Position numbers and translations under genes: made by a program. The notes beneath the pieces were generated by a model, which saw nothing but the letters and a program-made list of their open reading frames with translations, searched no databases and was not told where the DNA came from. From NCBI GenBank assembly GCA_017415515.1, contig JAFQGI010000006.1:1-45176 (forward strand): DNA of 45,176 nucleotides, read 5' to 3'. Source of the stretch: Clostridia bacterium. GTDB taxonomy: Bacteria > Bacillota > Clostridia > Oscillospirales > Acutalibacteraceae. Positions 1 through 13,026 of this stretch are shown in pieces; the stretch's first letter is position 1; each line of letters opens with the position of its first letter.

Positions 1-654
1 CAACGGTTCTATGTTTTCGTTATTTAAAAAACCCAACGCCGCTGTCATAGATTCAATTATTCTTTCTTCAGGCATTAACCCTGCATGGATAACTTTATCG
101 GTCTCGCTATGAACTGTGACAATATCTTTTCTAAACAATTTTCCATCCGGTTTATTTGCTGGATCTTCACGCACCACTTCTTCTAAAAATATTTCATCAT
201 AAATCTTCCGTACATCTTCACAACTGTTTAGTTCAATTTTCTCTTTTGCTATCAGTTTTAAATATTTATTAACTAAACTCAAGAAGCGTTGCCGTCTTCC
301 CCGATTTTGTATTTGTGCCTCCAAAATATCAAGTGCTTCTCCAATTTCCTTACGGCTACTATGCACACCCTCAATTTTATTTGTAATAACAATTTCATCT
401 ATTAGACATTTTTTGGAATACTGCTGTATTGCGACACCAGGTAGTTCACCGCACAAATCGCCTATTTTTTTGTCTAGTTTAGCAATTTCAAAAGCGAGTC
501 GCATAACATCAACTGTTTGTGTGAAAAACGCTTGCTTATCGCCGATTTGAAAATCTATTCGGACTGTCTCTTCAGAATTAAATCTATTCGTATACTCTTG
601 AGCATACCGTTCATTACTTTCATAATAGTATTTCTTCAGCTCTCTGTAAGGCAT
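1..654 (-). CDS. Fic family protein, N-terminal part (runs off the left edge)
   Basis: An open frame of 218 codons enters from the left edge and starts at an ATG at 654, preceded by an AAGGAGG site at 662-668. Residues 91-96 read TNKIEG, which fits the [S/T]xxxE[G/N] inhibitory helix that blocks the ATP site in self-inhibited Fic proteins. The following SSRKEI and the surrounding helical sequence are typical of the Fic N-terminal domain. Fic enzymes usually transfer AMP to a hydroxyl side chain of a target protein, and the inhibitory glutamate restrains this. The catalytic HPFxxGNGR motif would lie beyond the window, so activity cannot be judged. The gene is AT-rich like its XRE neighbour and unlike the DNA beyond 4.7 kb, which suggests acquired DNA. 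No antitoxin partner is visible. Confidence 0.85.
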   Translation of the reverse strand, partial: MPYRELKKYYYESNERYAQEYTNRFNSEETVRIDFQIGDKQAFFTQTVDVMRLAFEIAKLDKKIGDLCGELPGVAIQQYSKKCLIDEIVITNKIEGVHSSRKEIGEALDILEAQIQNRGRRQRFLSLVNKYLKLIAKEKIELNSCEDVRKIYDEIFLEEVVREDPANKPDGKLFRKDIVTVHSETDKVIHAGLMPEERIIESMTAALGFLNNENIEPL

Positions 655-684
655 AATACAACCTCCTTTTTGCTTGTGACAACC

Positions 685-713
685 ATTATAGCTTATTTCA
701 AATCAAAAATCAA
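685..713 (-). promoter_or_regulatory. Predicted sigma-A promoter of the fic gene
   Basis: Reading on the minus strand, TTGATT (708-713) and TATAAT (685-690) are separated by 17 bases and lie about 30 bases before the start codon. The rest of the AT-rich gap up to 894 shows no convincing gene. Confidence 0.6.
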
Positions 714-894
714 GCGTTTTTTTATTTGAACATTGCTTTTGTTTCTTGATAAATAAAAATATGCGTTTGTTTTTATTCGTTTTACATGTGAAGTCACGTC
801 ATTTATAGTATATATCTATAATTTTGTTTTAATTCCTTTTGGTAACACAAAATCATTCCGCTGTTTTATTTTTTCACGTTGTCCTTACACAAGC

Positions 895-924
895 AACAGC
901 GGAGTGGAATTCCACTCCGCTGTT
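895..924 (-). terminator. Perfect 30-bp palindrome after the XRE gene
   Basis: Two perfect 15-base arms form a hairpin 12 bases after the stop codon of the XRE gene. The arm AACAGCGGAGTGGAA resembles the arms of the two palindromes at 2301 and 3630 (AGCG-AGG-GAA core). It is likely a terminator and possibly a structural mark of the cassette-like units. Confidence 0.6.
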
Positions 925-936
925 CGCTTTTCCGAA

Positions 937-1968
937 TCAATTCAAAATAGTTTTATAAATGTCGCCTGAAAGCTGTGTGGCTACATGTTCTGTTTGCGTT
1001 TGGTTATTAACGCTCGTAAATTCTTCAGGTGAAATACGTCGTCCTTTGAAAAGTAAAGACGTGTGCATTTGGGCGATCAAACCATCGTATAGTTTGGAAT
1101 GCTCTACTGCTTTTTTGCCGTATGCAGTGGCTTGTTCGCTGTTCCCTTCACTGCGTTTCGCCAGTTCCACAAACACACGAGAAAGAAAAACATGATAAAA
1201 TCCATAATCACTGTCCTCAAAGACAATTTCAAAGATATTAGGAAGTTTTTTCAGTGCTTTTATACGATCTCCTTTTGATAATTCGCTTTCTGTTGCATAG
1301 ACAAATATCAGTCGGTGCAATAAGTGCAATACTGCATCCAAACTGCATTGAATGGACTCTGTTTTGTCTTTGCCCTCCAATACACCCAAAGCGGCGGTCT
1401 CAATACCGGACCAAATGCTCGGTAATTTTTTCATCCATCCAATTGCCTTTTCACCGTTTCCCAACAGCTTGTTGCATACAGAAATATTGTTTATGCAACG
1501 GCACTGTTCTTCCAGATCTTCCGTCATTTTCAAAAAACGTTCTGCGATAGATATAGACAATTCAAGATAATATTTTCTTTTTTCGTCTACATTGTGAAGT
1601 CCCATAAGATAGGAATCAACCATTACATTATTGATAATTGACTTGTTATTTGGAAAAGAAGCATATACTTTTTGCGACAAGCTGTAGGCATCAGAAATAT
1701 TGCCGCGATGATGAGCCTCCTGTCGATCTTTTTCATAATTCTCTATAATGGACTTGCTGGTCTCGTAGTCTGCACCTAACAGAAAATCGACAGTGACATT
1801 GTAAAACGACGCAAGAACGGGCAGGAACGTAATGTCCGGATAGGTCGCATTATTTTCCCATCTACTTACCGATTGTTTTGAAACATCTAACAACTCTGCG
1901 ACCTGTTCTTGTGTGAAGCCTTTTTGTTTTCTCAATGTTTTTATATTTTCACCAAAATTGAAATTCAT
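937..1968 (-). CDS. XRE-family transcriptional regulator with long helical C-terminal region
   Basis: The 343-residue protein starts at the ATG at 1968, which has GGAGGTG just upstream. A longer frame to 2007 has no ribosome binding site and runs into the promoter. Residues 5-65 form a classic HTH_3 domain, with TQEQVAELLDVSKQSVSRWE carrying the recognition helix. The remaining 280 residues are helix-rich with no domain I can name; they may be TPR-like, as in peptide-sensing XRE regulators, but this is inference. The gene has its own promoter, an operator-like palindrome and a terminator, so it is a self-contained unit. Its targets are unknown. It is AT-rich and followed on the right by the first spoVT-derived repeat, so it may be an older cassette of the same series. 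Confidence 0.85.
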   Translation of the reverse strand: MNFNFGENIKTLRKQKGFTQEQVAELLDVSKQSVSRWENNATYPDITFLPVLASFYNVTVDFLLGADYETSKSIIENYEKDRQEAHHRGNISDAYSLSQKVYASFPNNKSIINNVMVDSYLMGLHNVDEKRKYYLELSISIAERFLKMTEDLEEQCRCINNISVCNKLLGNGEKAIGWMKKLPSIWSGIETAALGVLEGKDKTESIQCSLDAVLHLLHRLIFVYATESELSKGDRIKALKKLPNIFEIVFEDSDYGFYHVFLSRVFVELAKRSEGNSEQATAYGKKAVEHSKLYDGLIAQMHTSLLFKGRRISPEEFTSVNNQTQTEHVATQLSGDIYKTILN

Positions 1969-1991
1969 ATAAACACCTCCATAAATGTGTT

Positions 1992-2036
1992 TTGTAGCTA
2001 CAATCATAGTATATAGGATAATTTCAGCACAATCAA
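1992..2036 (-). promoter_or_regulatory. Promoter and operator-like palindrome of the XRE gene
   Basis: On the minus strand TTGATT (2031-2036) and TATACT (2008-2013) are 17 bases apart. Immediately downstream the perfect 12-base palindrome TTGTAGCTACAA (1992-2003) covers the predicted transcription start. Its position suggests autorepression by the XRE protein, which is an inference. Confidence 0.55.
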
Positions 2037-2101
2037 TGTCTCGGTTTGTGATGGGTGTAACGAAAAATGAGACAGGGTGGCTTTTCTCTTTTTAAGAAAA
2101 T

Positions 2102-2190
2102 TGCAGTATAAATCTCCTCAAAACACAGATACTAACAACACAATTTGTAATATATATATGAAAGCAACTGGGATTGTGAGAAGAATAGAT
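2102..2190 (+). repeat. spoVT 5'-end repeat, copy A (decayed)
   Basis: This copy matches the leader and first codons of spoVT, with substitutions and a loss of about 12 bases that removes the AAGGAG ribosome binding site. The codons read MKATGIVRRIDE and then stop. It appears to be the oldest stranded 5' end of spoVT. Confidence 0.85.
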
Positions 2191-2300
2191 GAATGAGGTA
2201 TAATAACACCAAGCGCTTTAAACTCTTATAAATACAGGGTTTTGAGTGATTTTTAAGAAATATTTTTTACAAAAAACAGCACATTTTGACTTATACATAG

Positions 2301-2331
2301 CAAAAGCGAGGTGAATTTCACCTCGCTTTTG
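2301..2331 (-). terminator. Palindromic terminator, 15-bp arms
   Basis: CAAAAGCGAGGTGAA is followed after one base by its exact reverse complement, 35 bases after the stop of the gene at 2367. A/T-rich flanks on both sides would let it end transcription in either direction. Confidence 0.65.
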
Positions 2332-2366
2332 CGACATTCGTTTATTAATTGTGTACATAATGGATA

Positions 2367-3278
2367 TTACTTTTCAATCCTATCAAAATTAAGTAATATC
2401 TTTGCTCTCTTCACGGTAATATATCCTTTCCAATTCTCAGTAACCTGCCGAGAAACATCGCTATCAATTCCCCAAGAGAAATTAGGGTTCCATACACCTT
2501 GTTCATTGATATTGTCAAACCAAAAATCGAAAGTTTGTTCAATTCCGTGCTTTACATCGTCATACCAAATGGAAGAGGGGGATGATACGAAATCCAGCGG
2601 AGTAAAATAATATCCATTATAATTGTTTGTGTCAAAGCAAGTGTTATCAAGAATTCTTCTGCGCATAGATGACAGTATTTCATTAGTTATAAGAGGGGAG
2701 TTGATTTGCAGAAGCTGATGAACCAATGCTTGTATATTCAATGAATCGTGATCTCCACAGAAATCATTGCTCAAAAGGAGTGCAAAGCAATCATCCGCTA
2801 TTTTATATCCGAGTTCTCTTTGACTCTCTGTTCCGTAACGGATAAACGCTGAAGCGACAACAGCACATGGATTAGGGTTGAATACGGTACAAGGTGCATA
2901 GTTCCACCACGGCGCGTGAGGATAATCCATTGCTTCCTTGGGACTATCTTCCCAATATTTCGGTATATCCTGAACCGAGTTTTCAAAATAAGCCAATATA
3001 GTTTTAAACCATTCAGAAGAACAATCAAGATCATATTCATATGCTTGGAAAATTGCTTCTGCAGTCGGAATTGCAGCTGATAATGGGCAAAGCACATCCG
3101 CTTCAAAGCCACTGCCCATTCCACCATCTGTATTCTGATATTTCAGCATCTCTTCCACGATCTGTCCTTTTGAACCACCGTTAAAAAGATAATTCCATTT
3201 TGCTCGATCATATGGGCGGGCATTTACCTGCATCCATTCGTTCATTTTCGCAAACTGAACTTTTGATAACATTCTCAT
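2367..3278 (-). CDS. Uncharacterised protein with prenyltransferase/terpene-cyclase-like alpha-alpha toroid repeats
   Basis: This 303-residue protein has no signal peptide or membrane segment. Residues 47-62 (YQNTDGGMGSGFEADV) resemble the QxxDG-type repeat motif of squalene-hopene cyclase and prenyltransferase alpha/alpha toroids. The regularly spaced tryptophan- and proline-rich stretches fit such a fold. I see no DXDD cyclase motif or zinc ligands of prenyltransferases, so enzyme activity should not be assumed. The start could be the ATG at 3278 or at 3272; the nearest AGAAAGG is rather far upstream. It is the only gene of its roughly 1.3-kb repeat-bounded unit, has its own promoter within the repeat and its own palindromic terminator, and is AT-rich. 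Function unknown. Confidence 0.7.
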   Translation of the reverse strand: MRMLSKVQFAKMNEWMQVNARPYDRAKWNYLFNGGSKGQIVEEMLKYQNTDGGMGSGFEADVLCPLSAAIPTAEAIFQAYEYDLDCSSEWFKTILAYFENSVQDIPKYWEDSPKEAMDYPHAPWWNYAPCTVFNPNPCAVVASAFIRYGTESQRELGYKIADDCFALLLSNDFCGDHDSLNIQALVHQLLQINSPLITNEILSSMRRRILDNTCFDTNNYNGYYFTPLDFVSSPSSIWYDDVKHGIEQTFDFWFDNINEQGVWNPNFSWGIDSDVSRQVTENWKGYITVKRAKILLNFDRIEK

Positions 3279-3374
3279 AACAATAACACTTAGCCTTTCT
3301 GCAGAAGATTCCTCTCTCGGTTTATTTGTATCTAACAGATTTCTTTCAACTTACTTTCAAAAATGTTTTATCAA

Positions 3375-3510
3375 TTTATTATATCATATTTCATTTCAAA
3401 AGTAAATCTATGCAGTATAAATCTCCTCAAAATACAGATAATAACAACACAATTTGTAATTTAAGGAGAAATGTATATATGAAAGCAACTGGAATTGTGA
3501 GAAGAATTGA
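3375..3510 (+). repeat. spoVT 5'-end repeat, copy B (intact leader, orphaned)
   Basis: The core 3411-3510 matches 4679-4778 at about 96 of 100 positions by eye, with the four differences clustered just before the AAGGAG site. Weaker similarity extends left to 3375 and covers the divergent promoter. The ribosome binding site and ATG (3479) are intact, but after the tenth codon the frame leaves spoVT and reads 20 codons in all before a stop. Confidence 0.92.
3378..3406 (-). promoter_or_regulatory. Promoter of the 303-residue gene
   Basis: On the minus strand TTTACT (3401-3406) and TATAAT (3378-3383) are 17 bases apart. The same arrangement recurs at 4646-4674, so the repeat carries the cassette gene promoter as well as the spoVT leader. 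Confidence 0.6.
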
Positions 3511-3523
3511 GGCTTGTGTTATA

Positions 3524-3581
3524 ATAGGGCAAACCGCCTGAAAGGCGCATAAACACTAGGTTTTTTGTTAGTTTGCCCTAT
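3524..3581. repeat. Nested inverted repeats at the left end of cassette 2
   Basis: ATAGGGCAAAC (3524-3534) pairs exactly with GTTTGCCCTAT (3571-3581), and a small CGCC/GGCG stem (3535-3547) lies inside. AAACCGCC (3531-3538) could alternatively pair with GGCGGTTT (3613-3620). The segment can therefore fold in more than one way right beside the recombination junction. Confidence 0.6.
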
Positions 3582-3629
3582 TGAACACAAGGGTGTTAAA
3601 AACGAGTTTTGGGCGGTTTTTATACATAA

Positions 3630-3660
3630 CAAAAGCGAGGGGAATTTTCCCTCGCTTTTG
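3630..3660 (-). terminator. Palindromic terminator, 12-bp arms
   Basis: CAAAAGCGAGGG (3630-3641) pairs with CCCTCGCTTTTG (3649-3660), eight bases after the stop of the gene at 3669. The arm is nearly the same as the palindrome at 2301. Confidence 0.65.
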
Positions 3661-3668
3661 TAGTTGTA

Positions 3669-4625
3669 TTACGGGAATTTTATTGTCAGTTCAGTTTCCT
3701 TGTAATCATTGCCGGTTAGATATGTAACAACCGCGATTCCCTCGCCGTTCGGTTTGGCTCCTATCACAATATCTCCTGCAACAGGAGAGCAGTTTGTTAG
3801 AATGTGCTTTTTATAATATTCTGACTTGTCAAATATATTTTGTACAATAACACTATATTCACCGTTTTCATAATTTGCATAAATAACATAATTGCCTTGT
3901 GCCATTAAAACATATTGAAAGGTCTCAGACACCTTACTGTTTTCAACATCACAATACACTGCCCAATTAGTTGACTGCCCCGTTCCTGTTTGAACTTTCA
4001 AACCTAAAATATATGTGTTGACTTGCTCAACCTTTGGTTCATGGGTAGCATTGTCTTTTGAGAACAAAACGTTATCATTTTTATCAACTACTGTATACGT
4101 GTATGTTAAATCGTCGTTTTTCGTAATTGAATACATATCAAGAGGATTATAATATTTATATACATCCCACAAATCATACCGACTAATATTTTTGATTGAA
4201 CCGCAGAACATATCCATATGACCGCAATCGTCTTTATCAAAAATTCCTTCTATAATAACATACTCACCATTATATTGTTGTGCTTCTTCATACGGAATTG
4301 CTTTTTCGCCAAGTTCAATCCAAATAGAATTGCCAACGCCGTATTTTAAATCTTCTTTACTAAGTGAAATGCAATTACCTTCAAATTCAAGATTACCCAC
4401 ACCGATAACTCTGACAAGTTGACCGTCATATTTTTCAGGAGTAGCAATCAATTGAATCATAGTTACATCTTTGGCATATTGATTGGCAGAGTTTGGTGTT
4501 TCGCTATAACCTGATTCGACAAGTTTATTTTTAAATAACTTTATTCCGAAAACCCCAGCCAAAACTACCGCTATTGTGATAAGAACAGAAAGAACAACAG
4601 TTATTATTTGTTTTTTGTTTTTCAC
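3669..4625 (-). CDS. Membrane-anchored extracytoplasmic protein of unknown function
   Basis: The 318-residue protein starts at a GTG (4625) preceded by AAAGGCGGTGA. Residues 1-6 are basic (MKNKKQ) and 7-28 form one hydrophobic helix, with no lipobox cysteine, so it is most likely an N-terminally anchored surface protein. The next ~110 residues contain TPEKYDGQLVRVIGVG and NGEYVIIEGIFDKDD, two similar beta-rich segments suggesting an OB-fold-like domain. The C-terminal half is also beta-rich and unassigned. I do not recognise a family with a known activity. It is the sole gene of the second repeat-bounded unit, AT-rich, and lies head to head with spoVT, sharing the short repeat C region as a divergent promoter. 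Confidence 0.75.
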   Translation of the reverse strand: MKNKKQIITVVLSVLITIAVVLAGVFGIKLFKNKLVESGYSETPNSANQYAKDVTMIQLIATPEKYDGQLVRVIGVGNLEFEGNCISLSKEDLKYGVGNSIWIELGEKAIPYEEAQQYNGEYVIIEGIFDKDDCGHMDMFCGSIKNISRYDLWDVYKYYNPLDMYSITKNDDLTYTYTVVDKNDNVLFSKDNATHEPKVEQVNTYILGLKVQTGTGQSTNWAVYCDVENSKVSETFQYVLMAQGNYVIYANYENGEYSVIVQNIFDKSEYYKKHILTNCSPVAGDIVIGAKPNGEGIAVVTYLTGNDYKETELTIKFP

Positions 4626-4642
4626 AAAATCACCGCCTTTGA

Positions 4643-4778
4643 TTTATTATATCACAACCGGTTCAAAAAGTAAATTGTTGCAGTATAAATCTCCTCAAAA
4701 TACAGATAATAACAACACACTTTGGTTTTTAAGGAGAAATGTATATATGAAAGCAACTGGAATTGTGAGAAGAATTGA
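4643..4778 (+). repeat. spoVT 5'-end repeat, copy C (functional)
   Basis: This copy supplies the working leader, AAGGAG site (4731-4736) and first ten codons of the present spoVT gene. Identity with copy B ends exactly at the tenth codon (after AGAATTGA at 4778). Confidence 0.92.
4646..4674 (-). promoter_or_regulatory. Promoter of the 318-residue gene
   Basis: On the minus strand TTTACT (4669-4674) and TATAAT (4646-4651) are 17 bases apart, about 20 bases before the GTG start. It diverges from spoVT. Confidence 0.6.
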
Positions 4779-5289
4779 CGACCTTGGTCGTGTGGTTATT
4801 CCGAAAGAGATTAGAAGAACGATGCGGATACGCGAAGGAGACCCGCTGGAGATCTTCACCGAGAAGGACGGCGAGGTGGTATTCAAAAAATACTCCCCCG
4901 TGGGGGAACTGTCCCCCTTTGCGGTGCAATACGCCGACGTGCTGGCTCGCGCCTGCAACATGACGGTGCTGGTGTGCGACCGCGACCACGTCATCGCTGC
5001 CGCCGGACAAAACCGCAAAGAGTTCTATGAACGGCGGGTGTCCGTGGGCTTAGACGAGGTGATGGAGGGGCGGCAGACCTACGTGGCCCAGGCAGGCGGC
5101 GCCAACCGCCTGCAACCGGTGGAGACCCTCAGCCGCTATGCCGCCGTGGCCGCCCCCATCCTCGCCAGCGGTGACGTCACCGGCGCGGTGTGCCTCATCC
5201 AGCCGGAAAGCGGCACCGTCCCCTCCGAGGGGGACGTGCGGCTGGCTCAGGTGGCGGCCGCGTTCCTCGGCAAGCAGATGGAAGAATGA
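4747..5289 (+). CDS. spoVT: Stage V sporulation protein T, AbrB-family regulator
   Basis: The 180-residue protein matches the length of Bacillus SpoVT (about 178). Residues 1-48 are the swapped-hairpin AbrB DNA-binding domain (MKATGIVRRIDDLGRVVIPK, then RTMRIREGDPLEIF). Residues ~60-180 look like the GAF-like domain. In spore formers SpoVT tunes forespore sigma-G genes. The start at 4747 has AAGGAG ten bases upstream; longer in-frame starts upstream lack one. The codons up to about the tenth belong to the triplicated segment, whereas the rest is single-copy and GC-rich. There is thus a compositional break inside the gene at the presumed recombination point. The leader contains a GTATA-(17)-ATAATA arrangement that could be a forespore promoter, but this is weak. 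Confidence 0.93.
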   Translation: MKATGIVRRIDDLGRVVIPKEIRRTMRIREGDPLEIFTEKDGEVVFKKYSPVGELSPFAVQYADVLARACNMTVLVCDRDHVIAAAGQNRKEFYERRVSVGLDEVMEGRQTYVAQAGGANRLQPVETLSRYAAVAAPILASGDVTGAVCLIQPESGTVPSEGDVRLAQVAAAFLGKQMEE

Positions 5290-5368
5290 GGCGGCTTTTA
5301 GTTGGAGCTTGTCGCAGTCAGCGTTGCCGCCTCTCGAATATGGCTACGCCATATTCCCACATTAGTGC
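5290..5368 (+). repeat. 79-bp direct repeat, copy 1
   Basis: This copy begins at the last base of the spoVT stop codon region and is nearly identical to 5377-5455. It contains the palindrome GAATATGGC-TAC-GCCATATTC. No gene is visible between 5290 and 5575. Confidence 0.9.
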
Positions 5369-5376
5369 AGATTTTT

Positions 5377-5455
5377 GGCGGCTTTTAGTTGGAGCTTGTC
5401 GCAGTTAGCGTTGCCGCCTCTCGAATATGGCTACGCCATATTCCCACATTGGTGC
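5377..5455 (+). repeat. 79-bp direct repeat, copy 2
   Basis: Second copy, separated from the first by eight bases and differing at about two positions (GCAGTTAGC versus GCAGTCAGC, ATTGG versus ATTAG). It carries the same internal palindrome. Confidence 0.9.
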
Positions 5456-5497
5456 GTAGGGGGCCACGGGCGGTCGAGGACGCCCGCCCCTACAAAC
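5456..5497. repeat. GC-rich fold-back intergenic element
   Basis: GTAGGGG near 5457 pairs with CCCCTAC near 5486-5492, with GGGCG/CGCCC inside. It resembles short dispersed intergenic elements of Clostridia. The dispersed nature is inference. Confidence 0.45.
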
Positions 5498-5525
5498 GCC
5501 ATTTGCGTTTTTGCGTAAATATAAA

Positions 5526-5564
5526 AACAGCACGCTCTGTCGGGGGGACAGAGCGTGCTGTTTT
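5526..5564. terminator. Bidirectional intrinsic terminator of the opp operon
   Basis: AAAACAGCACGCTCTGTC and its complement surround a G-rich loop and are flanked by A and T runs. It lies just after the last opp-operon gene on the minus strand and could also end spoVT transcripts. Confidence 0.85.
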
Positions 5565-5575
5565 ATATGGGGGCA

Positions 5576-5833
5576 TTACATCAATTTAAAGAGCAGGTAC
5601 ATAATGCCGTACAGCACCAACAATGCGCCGCCAAACACCAGGGTGGGCAGCAGCATCATACGGAAGGCATCGAAGAAGGTGGTCCACTTCTCCTTGCCGG
5701 TGCTGTAAGAGGGGGTGTCGTTGCGAAAATACTTAGACGCACCGCCCTTGACATTGGACATATCCGCAATGGTGCGGCCGTCGTCCACGTACACTACCTT
5801 TTCTTTTTTCTTTTTCTCTTTCTTCTCAGCCAC
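5576..5833 (-). CDS. Small lysine-rich membrane protein at the end of the opp operon
   Basis: This 85-residue protein begins MAEKKEKKKKEKVVYVDD, a highly basic N-terminus, followed by a polar segment. Residues ~58-83 are a strongly hydrophobic helix (LPTLVFGGALLVLYGIMYLL). It is probably a single-pass membrane protein with a cytoplasmic basic tail. It starts two bases after oppF ends, so it is the last cistron of the peptide-transport operon and may be an accessory subunit of the permease. No known family or motif is recognised; the role is inferred from position only. Confidence 0.7.
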   Translation of the reverse strand: MAEKKEKKKKEKVVYVDDGRTIADMSNVKGGASKYFRNDTPSYSTGKEKWTTFFDAFRMMLLPTLVFGGALLVLYGIMYLLFKLM

Positions 5834-5835
5834 GA

Positions 5836-6990
5836 TTAGGCCTCCTTGGAGGTTTCCTCTTCCAACAAATGGCAGGCGGCGAAGTGACCGGGCTCATACT
5901 CCTTATATTCCGGCACCACGTGCTTGCAGATCTCCTTGGCGTAGGGGCAACGGGTGTGGAAGCGGCAACCCTTGGGCGGGTTGGCGGGAGAAGGAATATC
6001 GCCGCCCAGGGCGATGCGTTGCATCTTCTGGGTGGGGTCGGGGTTGGGGACGGCGGAGAACAGCGCCTTGGTGTAGGGGTGCAGAGGATTGGTGAAGATG
6101 TCCTCTTTGGAGCCGAACTCCATCATACCGCCCAGATACATCACGCCGATCTTATCGGAGATAAACTTAACCACCGACAGGTCGTGGGAGATGAAAACGT
6201 AAGCCAGATTCATCTCGCGCTGCAACTCTTTGAGCAGGTTGATGATCTGCGCCTGAATGGACACGTCCAGAGCGGACACGGGCTCGTCGCAAATCACCAG
6301 CTTGGGGTTCACCGACAGGGCGCGAGCGATACAGATGCGCTGACGCTGGCCGCCGGAAAACTCGTGGGGATAGCGCTCGAAATAATAATCCCGCAGACCG
6401 CACTTGTCCATCAGATCCAGCACATAGTCCTTCACCTGCTCCTTGGGCACGATGTTGTGCACCAACACCGGCTCACTCAGCAGGCCGCCCACGGTGTCAC
6501 GGGGAGGCAGAGAGGAATAGGGGTCCTGGAAGATGATCTGCATCTGCTTGCGGATCTCACGCATCTGAGAGGATTTGAGGTGGGTGATGTCCTGGCCGTT
6601 GAAGATGATCTGGCCGCCGGTGGGCTCGTGCAATTTCAGAATAGCACGGCCGGCGGTGGTCTTGCCGCAGCCGGACTCGCCCACGATACCGAGGGTCTCG
6701 CCGGCCTTCAGCTTGAAGGAGATGTCGTCCACCGCAACCAGCTCTTTGGTCACCTTGCCGAACATGGTCTTTTGCAGGGGGAAGCACTTGCGCAGATGGC
6801 GCACCTCCAACACACAGTCGGGGTCAAAGGGCTGTGCCAGATCCTCCTCGATCTGCTGCTGGCGGCGAGCCTTAAACTCTGCCTCCAACGCCGCGTCGTC
6901 GTACTCGGGAACCTCCGGTGCGATCACCTGAGATTCCTCCAAGTTTTCGAAGTTCTTAATGACGTCCTCGGACGCATTACGCTTAGCCAT
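5836..6990 (-). CDS. oppF: Oligopeptide ABC transporter, ATP-binding protein OppF
   Basis: The 384-residue protein starts at the ATG at 6990 after GGAGGCTGACC and overlaps the end of oppD by eight bases; a longer frame to 7026 is not needed. It has Walker A GESGCGKT (104-111), the ABC signature SGGQRQR (212-218) and Walker B with DEP (235-237). The C-terminal oligopeptide-transporter domain has a [15 protein letters not shown] cysteine cluster, which in some Opp/Dpp ATPases binds an Fe-S cluster. It powers import together with OppD on the cytoplasmic face. A charged extension of about 55 residues precedes the ATPase domain. The usual SLNPR segment after the Q-loop reads SLPPR, a small deviation. 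Confidence 0.93.
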
Positions 6991-10434: not shown

Positions 10435-13026
10435 TTAGCCGACAAACTCCACTTCCCAAATGCGGTCCAGGGGAGAAGAATAGGGGTTGACGATCTTGGG
10501 CAGGCTGGAGGTCTTGATCACCTTGGAATTGTAAGCGTACAGCACGCTGCGCTGATAGACGGGCAATTCAATGGCCAGATCTAGGATCTTGCCCATCGCC
10601 TCCTCGTACAGGTCGGCGCGCTCGTTCTGATCGTTGGTGGAGCGGGCGTCGTCGATCAGGTCGGCCAGCTCGTTGAGCAGGTTCCGCTCCTCGGCAGTGC
10701 CGCTGACCTTCAGGTGGTTATAACCCCAAGCCAGCGTGCTGGTGGCGGTAGAATCCTTGTGGTAGACCTGATACAGGTCGGGGTCCAGAGCGGAGGACCA
10801 AGCGGCGGCCCACACCTCCAGAGCACCGGTGTTGATCTTGGTCAGAGCCTGGGTGTCGCACACCACCTCAACCTCCCAACCCATGCTGTTCAGCAGGGCG
10901 GCGGCATCACGGAACACCTTGTAGGTGGGGTGGTCGGTCAGGCTGGAGCCGGCGATGGTGAACTTCACCTTCAGATCGCTGGAACCGGTGCTGACGTTGG
11001 CGTTATTCATGTACTTCTTGATCAGCACACGAGCGCTATCCTCGTCAAACTTGCCGACAGGAGGATAATCCTTACCGTTGTCGTCGGCAGAGGTGCCGTC
11101 GGGATAAGCCCAGCTCACCTTGGACATGGGCCAGTAGATCTGGCTGGCGGTACCGGCACGGTAATAGTCCAGAGCCAGAGAGGTGTTCATAGCGCACATA
11201 ATGGCCTTACGCAGATTGATGTTCTGCACCTTGGCGGCGTTGATGCCCACGTAACCGTAACCCAACTGGTCGGTGGTCAGAGTGACCATGCCGCTGCTCT
11301 TCAAATTCTGCAACTTATCGTAGTTGTCGTTGGTCAAAGAGGGGGTGATATAGTGCACCTTGCCGCTTTCCAGGTTGGCGATGGCGTCGTTGGACAGAAC
11401 CACCTGATAACGCAGCTTCTCGATCTTGGCGTTCTCCAACTCAGCACCCACGGTCTCAAAATAGGTGTTGCGCTTGAAATACACAACGTTGTTGGTGAAG
11501 AAAGCGCTCTCAGCGGGCTTGTCGGAGTTCTTGTTGTCGGTGACCTTGTAGGGACCGGCGCCCATGGGCAGCTTGATGTTGCGGGTGGACTGGATGACGT
11601 TCTTCATGAAATCGAAGCTGGCATACTCAACACCGAACTTGTTGTTCGCAATGTCCACGCCAACGGAGCTGCCCTCGCCGTAATAGTGCTGGGGAGCCAC
11701 GGTGATGGCAAAGTTCCAAATAGCCTTGGGGTCCACGTCCTTGATGGTGATCTCCAACACGTCGTACTCGTCGCTGTTCTTCACGGTGCCGTCGTCGTTG
11801 TGGGCGGTGGCAACCTTGTAGGTCTTGTCGCCGATGGTGATCGCCTCACCGGCACGGTCGGTGTGACCCAAAGAAACGATACCGGAAATGTTGGGAACCA
11901 GCAGATCGCCGTCGGCGCTGTTCTCGCGCAGGATGATCTCCTTCGCCTTGGCGGTGTACTCGTTCATCACCTTGGCGGCGGTGCCCCACATGGTGAGAAT
12001 ACGGGAGAAGCTCTCTTTGAGCTCGATCTGATAGACGTACTCGATGGCGTCTTCCTTGGTCTTGATCGCGTTGGGGTCGTATTTGGGGGTCAGCTTTTCG
12101 ATCTTGGTGCGATCCTGCTTGCCGTCGGCACCCTCAGGATACTTCACCTCCACCTGGCCCTCGGAATACATAAAGCGGAAGATGTCGTTCTTAAACTCCT
12201 CGTGGGACTTATAAGGCTCATCGGTGTAGGAATCCTGAGCGGCCAGATAGTCGGCGTTCAGTTCCTCTTTAAACAGTTTCAGCGCGTTGTCATAGTCCGC
12301 CAACAACTGGGCGTTGGTCACCTCGGAGGGGTTGGTGGACAGAGAAGACTTGTAACCGGAGGACAGGGAGTGGGCCAGGATAGCCTGCTTCATCTCCTCA
12401 TAGGACACCTCGTTGGTGGGAGAAGCCTTCTGCATCGCGGTATACAGGTTGATCAGCTCCATCAGACGAGCCTCGGCACGGGCAGAGGCCTGCTGGGAAA
12501 CCAGATCGGTGCTGCCGGAGGTGGCAGAGATGGACTGGGTGCGATACTCGTTCAGACCCAAGATCTCGGTGGAATACAGGGTGTTGGAGCCGGTGTAAAC
12601 GGGATCCAAATAGACGTAATAGTTGAACAGCACGTCCTCCATGGTCAAGGGCTGACCGTCAGAGAACTTGATGCCGTTTTTCAGCACGAACACATAGGTG
12701 ATGGTGCCGTCGGCGTTCTCCACGATCTTATAATCCTTGGTCACCACGTTCTGGTCCTCACCATAGGCCACCACAACCTGGCCGGCCTCTTCGTCATACG
12801 TGGCACCCAGCATGCTGATCTGGGTCATGGCCACCACCGTGCCGTCAGCGGCGGCGGTGGAGAAGAAGGGATTGAACAGACCGTCGGGTTGGTCAATCAT
12901 CACAACGAAAGCATCCGGCTTGCCGGCGGCAGCCTCCTGCTTGTTCTTTTTGCCGCAGCCGGACATGGCGATCATACCGACGCACATGCACAGACACAGC
13001 AAAACACAAAGAATTTTACGTTTCAC
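10435..13026 (-). CDS. oppA: Peptide-binding lipoprotein OppA (SBP family 5), unusually long
   Basis: The 863-residue protein starts at a GTG (13026) with AAGGAG upstream. The signal peptide ends in a lipobox with cysteine 24 (MSGC), so the protein is tethered outside the membrane. Solute-binding family 5 features include the early NPFFSTAA segment, YVFVLKNGIKFSDGQPLTMEDV, and late KAIMCAMN and GYNHL regions. Typical OppA proteins are 530-600 residues. Here about 250 extra residues lie in the first half, rich in helical charged sequence (for example SARAEARLMELINLYTAMQK), as in some clostridial OppA variants. The extra part may shape peptide choice or contact a partner. The gene lies 36 bases after the giant protease gene, so uptake is probably coupled to surface proteolysis. 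Confidence 0.92.
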   Translation of the reverse strand: MKRKILCVLLCLCMCVGMIAMSGCGKKNKQEAAAGKPDAFVVMIDQPDGLFNPFFSTAAADGTVVAMTQISMLGATYDEEAGQVVVAYGEDQNVVTKDYKIVENADGTITYVFVLKNGIKFSDGQPLTMEDVLFNYYVYLDPVYTGSNTLYSTEILGLNEYRTQSISATSGSTDLVSQQASARAEARLMELINLYTAMQKASPTNEVSYEEMKQAILAHSLSSGYKSSLSTNPSEVTNAQLLADYDNALKLFKEELNADYLAAQDSYTDEPYKSHEEFKNDIFRFMYSEGQVEVKYPEGADGKQDRTKIEKLTPKYDPNAIKTKEDAIEYVYQIELKESFSRILTMWGTAAKVMNEYTAKAKEIILRENSADGDLLVPNISGIVSLGHTDRAGEAITIGDKTYKVATAHNDDGTVKNSDEYDVLEITIKDVDPKAIWNFAITVAPQHYYGEGSSVGVDIANNKFGVEYASFDFMKNVIQSTRNIKLPMGAGPYKVTDNKNSDKPAESAFFTNNVVYFKRNTYFETVGAELENAKIEKLRYQVVLSNDAIANLESGKVHYITPSLTNDNYDKLQNLKSSGMVTLTTDQLGYGYVGINAAKVQNINLRKAIMCAMNTSLALDYYRAGTASQIYWPMSKVSWAYPDGTSADDNGKDYPPVGKFDEDSARVLIKKYMNNANVSTGSSDLKVKFTIAGSSLTDHPTYKVFRDAAALLNSMGWEVEVVCDTQALTKINTGALEVWAAAWSSALDPDLYQVYHKDSTATSTLAWGYNHLKVSGTAEERNLLNELADLIDDARSTNDQNERADLYEEAMGKILDLAIELPVYQRSVLYAYNSKVIKTSSLPKIVNPYSSPLDRIWEVEFVG

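Follow-up and report, generated by a model that had tools for sequence, protein, structure and literature searches.

Why should the 5' end of a sporulation gene occur three times in a row, with another gene between each copy and the next? The question is raised by a contig of 45,176 nucleotides (nt) from a Clostridia bacterium of the Acutalibacteraceae (JAFQGI010000006.1, positions 1 to 45,176 of the forward strand; assembly GCA_017415515.1), hereafter the window. It carries the leader and first ten codons of spoVT in three copies, A, B, and C, separated by two units with one cargo gene each. A first-pass annotation of the window had read this as serial insertion of small cassettes that each restore the 5' end of spoVT. 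The array in the window and 98 distinct units delimited in related genomes uphold that view and confirm that small cassettes are stacked serially at the spoVT start, each with a fresh promoter and gene start. The features concerned are listed below; the leader and left-end hidden Markov models (HMMs) cited there were trained on such copies. ORF stands for open reading frame.

1 to 2101, minus strand: probable older units (partial ORF at 1-654 with a DUF4172 match below cut-off; palindrome near 894-923; helix-turn-helix gene at 937-1968)
2102 to 2187, plus strand: copy A, orphan spoVT leader and codons 1-10 (direct repeats; leader HMM at 2101-2186)
2188 to 2300, plus strand: class I left end of unit 1, beginning GATGAATGAGGTATAATA (left-end HMM at 2188-2255, E 6.5e-12)
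2301 to 2331, no strand: palindromic terminator of unit 1 (inverted repeats)
2367 to 3278, minus strand: cargo gene 1, 303 aa, without family match (ORF list)
3374 to 3410, minus strand: cargo promoter side of the right end of unit 1, TTTACT-17-TATAAT (direct repeat; promoter read from the sequence)
3411 to 3508, plus strand: copy B, spoVT leader and codons 1-10, the right end of unit 1 (repeats, leader search; leader HMM at 3407-3507)
3509 to 3629, plus strand: class I left end of unit 2, beginning GAGGCTTGTGTTATAATAGGGCAAACC and folding as a long hairpin (left-end HMM at 3509-3581; z -6.42)
3630 to 3660, no strand: palindromic terminator of unit 2 (inverted repeats)
3669 to 4625, minus strand: cargo gene 2, 318 aa, without confident family (ORF list; Pfam and NCBIfam scans)
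4642 to 4678, minus strand: cargo promoter side of the right end of unit 2 (direct repeat)
4679 to 4776, plus strand: copy C, leader and codons 1-10 of the intact spoVT, the right end of unit 2 (repeats, leader search, leader HMM)
4747 to 5289, plus strand: intact spoVT (Pfam, NCBIfam, start position), with the GA of codon 11 at 4777-4778 as the putative crossover (junction statistics)

The spoVT ATG codons stand at 2158, 3479, and 4747. Their spacing of 1321 and 1268 bp agrees with the unit sizes first estimated, about 1.32 and 1.27 kb. With copy C as query, the window's own genome gave three matches at E <=0.001, copy C itself (4.9e-47) and two others at 96% (1.3e-41) and 81% identity (3.0e-23), and no further leader site at E 0.001. 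The threefold presence of leader and first ten codons is therefore borne out. Copies A and B end at the GA of codon 11, while copy C continues into the sole intact spoVT. Copies B and C diverge at this GA (3509 and 4777), so that ten whole codons are common to them; the agreement at about 96 of 100 positions up to one shared base had been described correctly. A direct repeat of 137 nt (3374-3510 and 4642-4778, 89% identity) also includes the minus-strand cargo promoter. The intact SpoVT protein of 180 aa matches Pfam SpoVT_C (3.7e-38) and scores 213.8 bits against NCBIfam TIGR02851, under the cut-off of 235.9. Immediately 3' of the gene, at 5290-5455, are two 79-nt direct repeats (97% identity), each with a GAATATGGCTACGCCATATTC palindrome.

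Both units have a palindromic terminator, one long minus-strand ORF, and a TTTACT-17-TATAAT promoter, as read from the sequence, ahead of the next leader. The common plan proposed at first thus stands for the terminator, the single minus-strand gene, the promoter, and the new spoVT start; a stable fold of the left end is found only in unit 2 (z -6.42, against 0.30 for unit 1). Cargo gene 1 has no Pfam or NCBIfam match up to E 0.1. We dropped an RNA family as an explanation: between 1900 and 5400 of the window, no Rfam match came close to its cut-off, and four further loci yielded none at gathering level (L052, L043, L200, and L160; here and below, G, C, and L number genomes, contigs, and fetched loci). 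The array probably continues leftward into contig C17 of the same genome (L103). The last 19 nt of C17 equal the first 19 nt of the window, so the two are probably adjacent. C17 has a diverged spoVT start near position 11435, preceded by another terminator and ORF, and the ORF with the weak DUF4172 match (window 1-654) probably spans the gap.

How far do such arrays extend? We drew 200 genomes from the window's family (group f1); the array-bearing genomes are drafts, mostly metagenome-assembled genomes (MAGs). A 100-nt query of leader and start matched 124 of the 200 at E 0.01, and the left end of unit 2 matched 33 at E 1e-4. Orphan spoVT starts, which the first-pass annotation had proposed to seek in related genomes, are present: the leader matched two or more times in 40 of the 200 (a count of rows, some of which are split hits). 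In named genome contigs, at least 118 stretches bear the junction pattern. Among the matches listed, the titles are almost all of MAGs labelled Clostridia, Oscillospiraceae, and similar, and goat, sheep, deer, cattle, yak, and buffalo account for most of the hosts named. Delimiting units between neighboring spoVT copies less than 9 kb apart in the fetched loci gave the 98 distinct units: 86 of class I, 11 of class II (see below), and one unclassified. Class I units have a median length of 1975 bp (range 659-6715) and class II units of 1340 bp (range 694-3227). The longest ORF opposes spoVT in 53 of the 86 class I and 10 of the 11 class II units, and 58 of all 98 hold a single ORF of at least 100 aa. 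Candidate empty sites also exist, as spoVT loci with one copy in the fetched stretch (e.g., L054, L055, and L066-L068). That the arrays are assembly errors at repeats is very improbable. Several junctions do have a contig end at a distance of about 130 bp or less (e.g., L130, L136, L159, L161, and L169); yet MAGs from several collections (RGIG, SIG, RUG, and others) show the same design, with cargo that is partly different and partly shared, and arrays lie inside longer contigs with matching unit boundaries.

The contents of the arrays vary, and cassettes are shared and recombined between genomes. Cargo differs between relatives, contrary to what would have overturned the cassette idea: in the same-genus genome G027 the first cassette is not that of the window and the second is related to unit 2 of the window without being identical (71% over 409 bp), and L051 and L045 carry different cassettes beside a syntenic downstream flank. 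Among the delimited units, 25 homologous pairs over 300 bp were found. A cassette that domain matches mark as metF/metH is 98% identical between L193 and L314 over 4.1 kb; the units of L184 and L226 are 95% identical and those of L047 and L199 93%. Unit 2 of the window has relatives in L123 (87%), L133 (75%), and L035 (71% over 409 bp). In L199, cassettes that occur in separate arrays of L035 and L047 are adjacent. The L047/L199 homology runs from the orphan ATG through codon 11 of the right copy; outside it, the left leader is unrelated (26%) and the sequence beyond differs (29%). A boundary comparison of this kind was made for 13 of the 25 pairs. Among 55 distinct intact spoVT genes, identity over the 94-nt leader and start reaches 85% or more in 72 of 1485 pairs. 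The window and G200, for instance, are 96% identical over leader and start, 77% over the next 94 nt, and 55% over the following 282.

The commonest cargo was surveyed in 164 ORFs, scanned as two sets of 82, with the 25 commonest of 69 and of 84 Pfam families considered. Among these are restriction-modification, Fic, TIR, Abi_alpha, and AraC regulator families, as well as metabolic families: sugar kinases, glycoside hydrolases, and methionine synthesis. Orphan spoVT starts of L052, L065, L160, L164, and L200 contain a GC-rich repeat of roughly 110 bp inside codon 5, and other short sequences break up leaders, e.g., in L193 and L199.

Where, then, does the exchange occur, and what catalyzes it? 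We collected 178 candidate class I junctions and used the 162 with a spoVT start for statistics. The GA is conserved (G 96%, A 98%), in a set whose search patterns favored such junctions. The base preceding it is A in 96, C in 37, T in 28, and G in one, which fits the third base of Ile-10, and the variable upstream positions are mostly synonymous. Fourteen of the 178 candidates lack the expected start, and some resemble chance promoter matches (e.g., L042 and L163). Those among them of the form GCACCGCAAGAGGAAAG|GTGAGAAGAAT were dropped as a separate kind of right end: five of six inspected show a recognizable spoVT start with a GC-rich insert of roughly 110 bp in codon 5, one of them with a changed start codon.

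An element ending in the same junction, whose existence the first-pass annotation had raised, is found in genome G031. Its ends, on contigs C68 and C75, split spoVT at the GA of codon 11. The attL on C68 reads AGAATC|GA|CTAATGCGTTATAATAGGACAAGG and is followed by conjugation genes (L369), a PF02534 coupling protein and a TraG P-loop protein, which are type IV secretion genes. On C75, three large serine recombinases stand in tandem (575, 569, and 538 aa, each with PF00239 and PF07508). The attR, TACTTGACACGTTCA|GA|TGATTTGGG, comes about 150 bp further on, and spoVT follows from codon 11 onward without its start. The left end in the window matches the G031 attL place (G031:C68:19841) at 80% over 48 nt (E 3.1e-5). 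Element and cassettes use one site and resemble each other in the left arm. In G200, an insert of about 30 kb has the same left end as G031, a like right arm, and a related recombinase (63% over residues 27-349 of 575); by its sequence it appears to be a decayed relative of the G031 element. Beyond it, spoVT sequence from codon 11 to about codon 34 leads into a class II cassette and then an intact spoVT. The left end of the insert shares 97% identity over 89 nt with that of a unit in L212; pieces at contig ends match it at 99% over 126-127 nt. The insert also contains a small gene of AbrB type (L312:8018-8143) whose product shares 52% identity with the SpoVT N-terminus across 42 residues. In both G031 and G200, the joined element arms give TTGACA-17-TATAAT across the GA, as read from the sequence, and dyad symmetry of attP is strong in G200 (16/24, p 0.0001). 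Elements of the Tn4451 type are known to have circle-specific promoters and to cross over at GA. In G137, a serine-recombinase triplet (L359:12509 onwards) ends in ACTTGACACAAGCA|GA with the same P arm. The genes beyond it resemble, as we take it, spoVAE and spoVAD, so sporulation genes may be a common target.

These observations suggest that spoVT is the attachment gene of a conjugative serine-recombinase element and that the arrays are stacks of passengers there, gained and lost in trans as well as by homologous exchange, an explanation to which we give an even chance. The element with its three tandem large serine recombinases would cross over at the GA of codon 11. A class I cassette would comprise the left arm of the element (P') and a terminator, followed as a rule by one to a few cargo genes. 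At its right end, the cargo promoter and a complete spoVT promoter would point in opposite directions, the latter with its ribosome site and the first ten codons of the gene. Since a functional spoVT 5' end would close every cassette, insertion would be tolerated and the next cassette could be added; the rebuilt spoVT would presumably be expressed, from a promoter that, as read from the sequence, may depend on sigma-G. Having no recombinase of their own, cassettes would be acted on in trans by those of a visiting element, and with B-P' beside P-B' a cassette could depart and arrive together with the element. Homologous exchange among the repeated leaders would also gain and lose cassettes and swap left ends and leaders. 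The arrays would then be a miniature of attachment-site accretion at a serine-integrase attB. We infer both the movement of cassettes by the recombinases and the route by which cargo enters them.

Several points weigh against this explanation. The left side of a cassette is B-P', and the right side is B followed by B' or by the next P'. Because right ends carry the B arm and not P, the cassette is not flanked by attL and attR. With breakpoints that are blurred as well, the initial claim that site-specific recombination as such inserts the cassettes is not supported. The attL and attR of G031 are complementary at the GA but lie on separate contigs, C68 and C75, and the dyad symmetry is 9/24 in the attP of G031 (p 0.19) and weak in both attB. 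The G200 insert also carries two tyrosine recombinases (402 and 294 aa) and has no VirB4/VirD4 relative at E 1e-20, which makes its mover uncertain. Recombinases related at E 1e-20 occur in 124 of the 200 family genomes, whether arrays are present or not; they are absent at that threshold from the window's genome, its two listed congeners, and G023, and the cassette carriers without such a relative are G000, G027, and G023. In 29 pairs with leaders 94% identical, the third positions of codons 4-12 agree at only 41-83%, so exchange is not restricted to the GA. For 15 of the 25 homologous pairs set against the control 95% level, right leaders lay above it in three, the cargo-promoter side in seven, and left leaders in none; left ends and leaders are exchanged between homologous cassettes.

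Could homologous recombination alone account for the arrays? The B-P' junctions would then stem from a few decayed elements, and RecA-type exchange at the leader repeats of 100-140 bp would shuffle cassettes, with DNA arriving by any route. Long direct repeats are present, breakpoints are blurred across codons 4-12, and left ends and leaders are swapped between homologous cassettes. Indirectly, two points speak against it: hosts with an unrelated leader would offer only about 30 bp of coding similarity for entry, and leaders often differ, by eye, inside one array. We regard this as a serious contender, though unlikely. In view of the mixed codons 4-12, the swapped left ends and leaders, and the genomes without a recombinase relative, homologous exchange is kept both as part of the proposed mechanism and as its main rival.

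Alternatively, a dedicated recombinase that has escaped us (plasmid- or phage-borne, host Xer, or a tyrosine recombinase of the G200 type) would move the cassettes, and the serine-recombinase element would merely share the site. HMMs built from 60 recombinases and run on the window, L033-L072, and L103-L240 detected none within units, in agreement with the first-pass annotation. The only three matches in array loci were an Xer-like gene (L057), an integrase (L240, the 30-kb G200 insert), and a fragment (L206). No tyrosine recombinase adjoins cassettes in the stretches searched (<=20 kb), a search that did not include the IntI family itself. PF00589 and PF00239 each occur in 15 of 16 array genomes; in 60 recombinase loci fetched from these genomes, with flanks of about 1.5 kb, spoVT starts and class I left ends are both absent, and the recombinase proteins split into many clusters. 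A separate mover is favored by G023 and G180, both 99% complete, which have class I cassettes and few recombinases (two PF00589 and no PF00239 in G023, two of each in G180), by the two tyrosine recombinases in G200, and by the class II junctions after codon 33-34, which the codon-11 site does not explain. Nevertheless, one exact junction pattern matched no viral contig, and the cassette left end resembles that of the serine-recombinase element. We rejected the Xer/dif idea, as a dif-like pattern was found in none of eight genomes, a weak test. On the whole, a hidden mover of this kind seems improbable. An insert at the spoVT site in L316 (104-8000) has relaxase, NikA/MobC-like, RepA_N, and KAP NTPase genes; it is perhaps a mobilizable element, and its right end was not found within the 20 kb fetched.

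In class II units, the spoVT copy extends to codon 33-34 and is followed by a conserved tail. We found 28 distinct tails, some behind other sequence; in L045 and L143 the tail is joined to a spoVT leader or start. No recombinase was found for these units. The stretch TACATAGC..GCGAGG (<=4 mismatches), the distal part of the class II tail, occurs in 94 of the 178 class I left ends, so class I cassettes may be class II cassettes re-headed by the left arm of the element. Both kinds of head occur with one cargo, shared by L036 (class I) and L049 (class II) at 82% over 786 bp.

The nearest known relatives of such arrays are the cis-mobilizable elements (CIMEs) of integrative and conjugative elements (ICEs) and integrative and mobilizable elements. 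According to the excerpted text of PMC5704250, a passenger beside an element can, in the accretion model, leave with it and stay behind elsewhere. As described there, CIMEs line up in tandem as passengers at the attachment site of an integrative element and lack integration genes, like the arrays in the loci searched for recombinases. They keep attL and attR, whereas a cassette has a new promoter and gene 5' end on the right; class I units measure 2 kb in the median and mostly hold one long ORF. An excerpt of the Dehalococcoides study (PMC3146451) describes 15 genomic islands at ssrA without integration module, which its authors suggested as possibly cis-mobilizable. These too are in tandem at one gene with a serine integrase; their site is the tmRNA 3' end with a 20-bp direct repeat, in contrast to the 5' end of a protein-coding sporulation gene. 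The accretion model, as far as these excerpts present it, fits, except that in the cassettes a complete promoter and gene start take the place of the P arm on the right (PMC5704250; PMC3146451). Streptococcal ICEs with serine-integrase triplets, like G031, have three recombinases in the same orientation near the target gene and small direct repeats (2-8 bp); the targets named are mutT, traG, and hsdM, and the excerpted text mentions neither spoVT nor cassette arrays (PMC4701971).

Integrons and clusters of attC sites lacking integron-integrases also hold arrays of small cassettes in varied combinations. The present cassettes differ in having their own promoters, no fold common to the left ends, and a serine rather than a tyrosine recombinase tied to the site, so that no integron likeness beyond the logic first noted is supported. 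An inverted copy of the outer 6-mer occurs in 32 of 178 left ends (384 of 7550 in the swapped control), together with the inner one in 23 of 178. An attC-like hairpin was rejected as a common feature, as it fits only part of the left ends (unit 2 folds, unit 1 does not). Staphylococcal cassette chromosome (SCC) elements use serine recombinases and insert serially into a gene end that stays functional; they are large, carry ccr genes, and sit at the 3' end of rlmH. No paper among those listed in searches on spoVT and attachment sites is presented there as describing spoVT as an integration site.

It is possible, if somewhat short of probable, that these arrays are a gene-capture platform of their own kind, spread among gut spore-formers: mostly single-gene cassettes with a two-way promoter, serving the cargo in one direction and spoVT in the other, that re-create their attachment gene with every insertion and are moved by large serine recombinases at B-P', integron-like without integrons. 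Such a platform would add a chromosomal cassette array, outside integrons, to spore-forming gut Clostridia, with defense-type cargo (restriction-modification, TIR, Fic, Abi) and metabolic genes (the metF/metH cassette, glycoside hydrolases). It would tie gene traffic to a sporulation regulator and offer a testable case of small passengers exploiting serine-integrase sites. The arrays suggest an unrecognized way for gut Clostridia to collect and swap genes.

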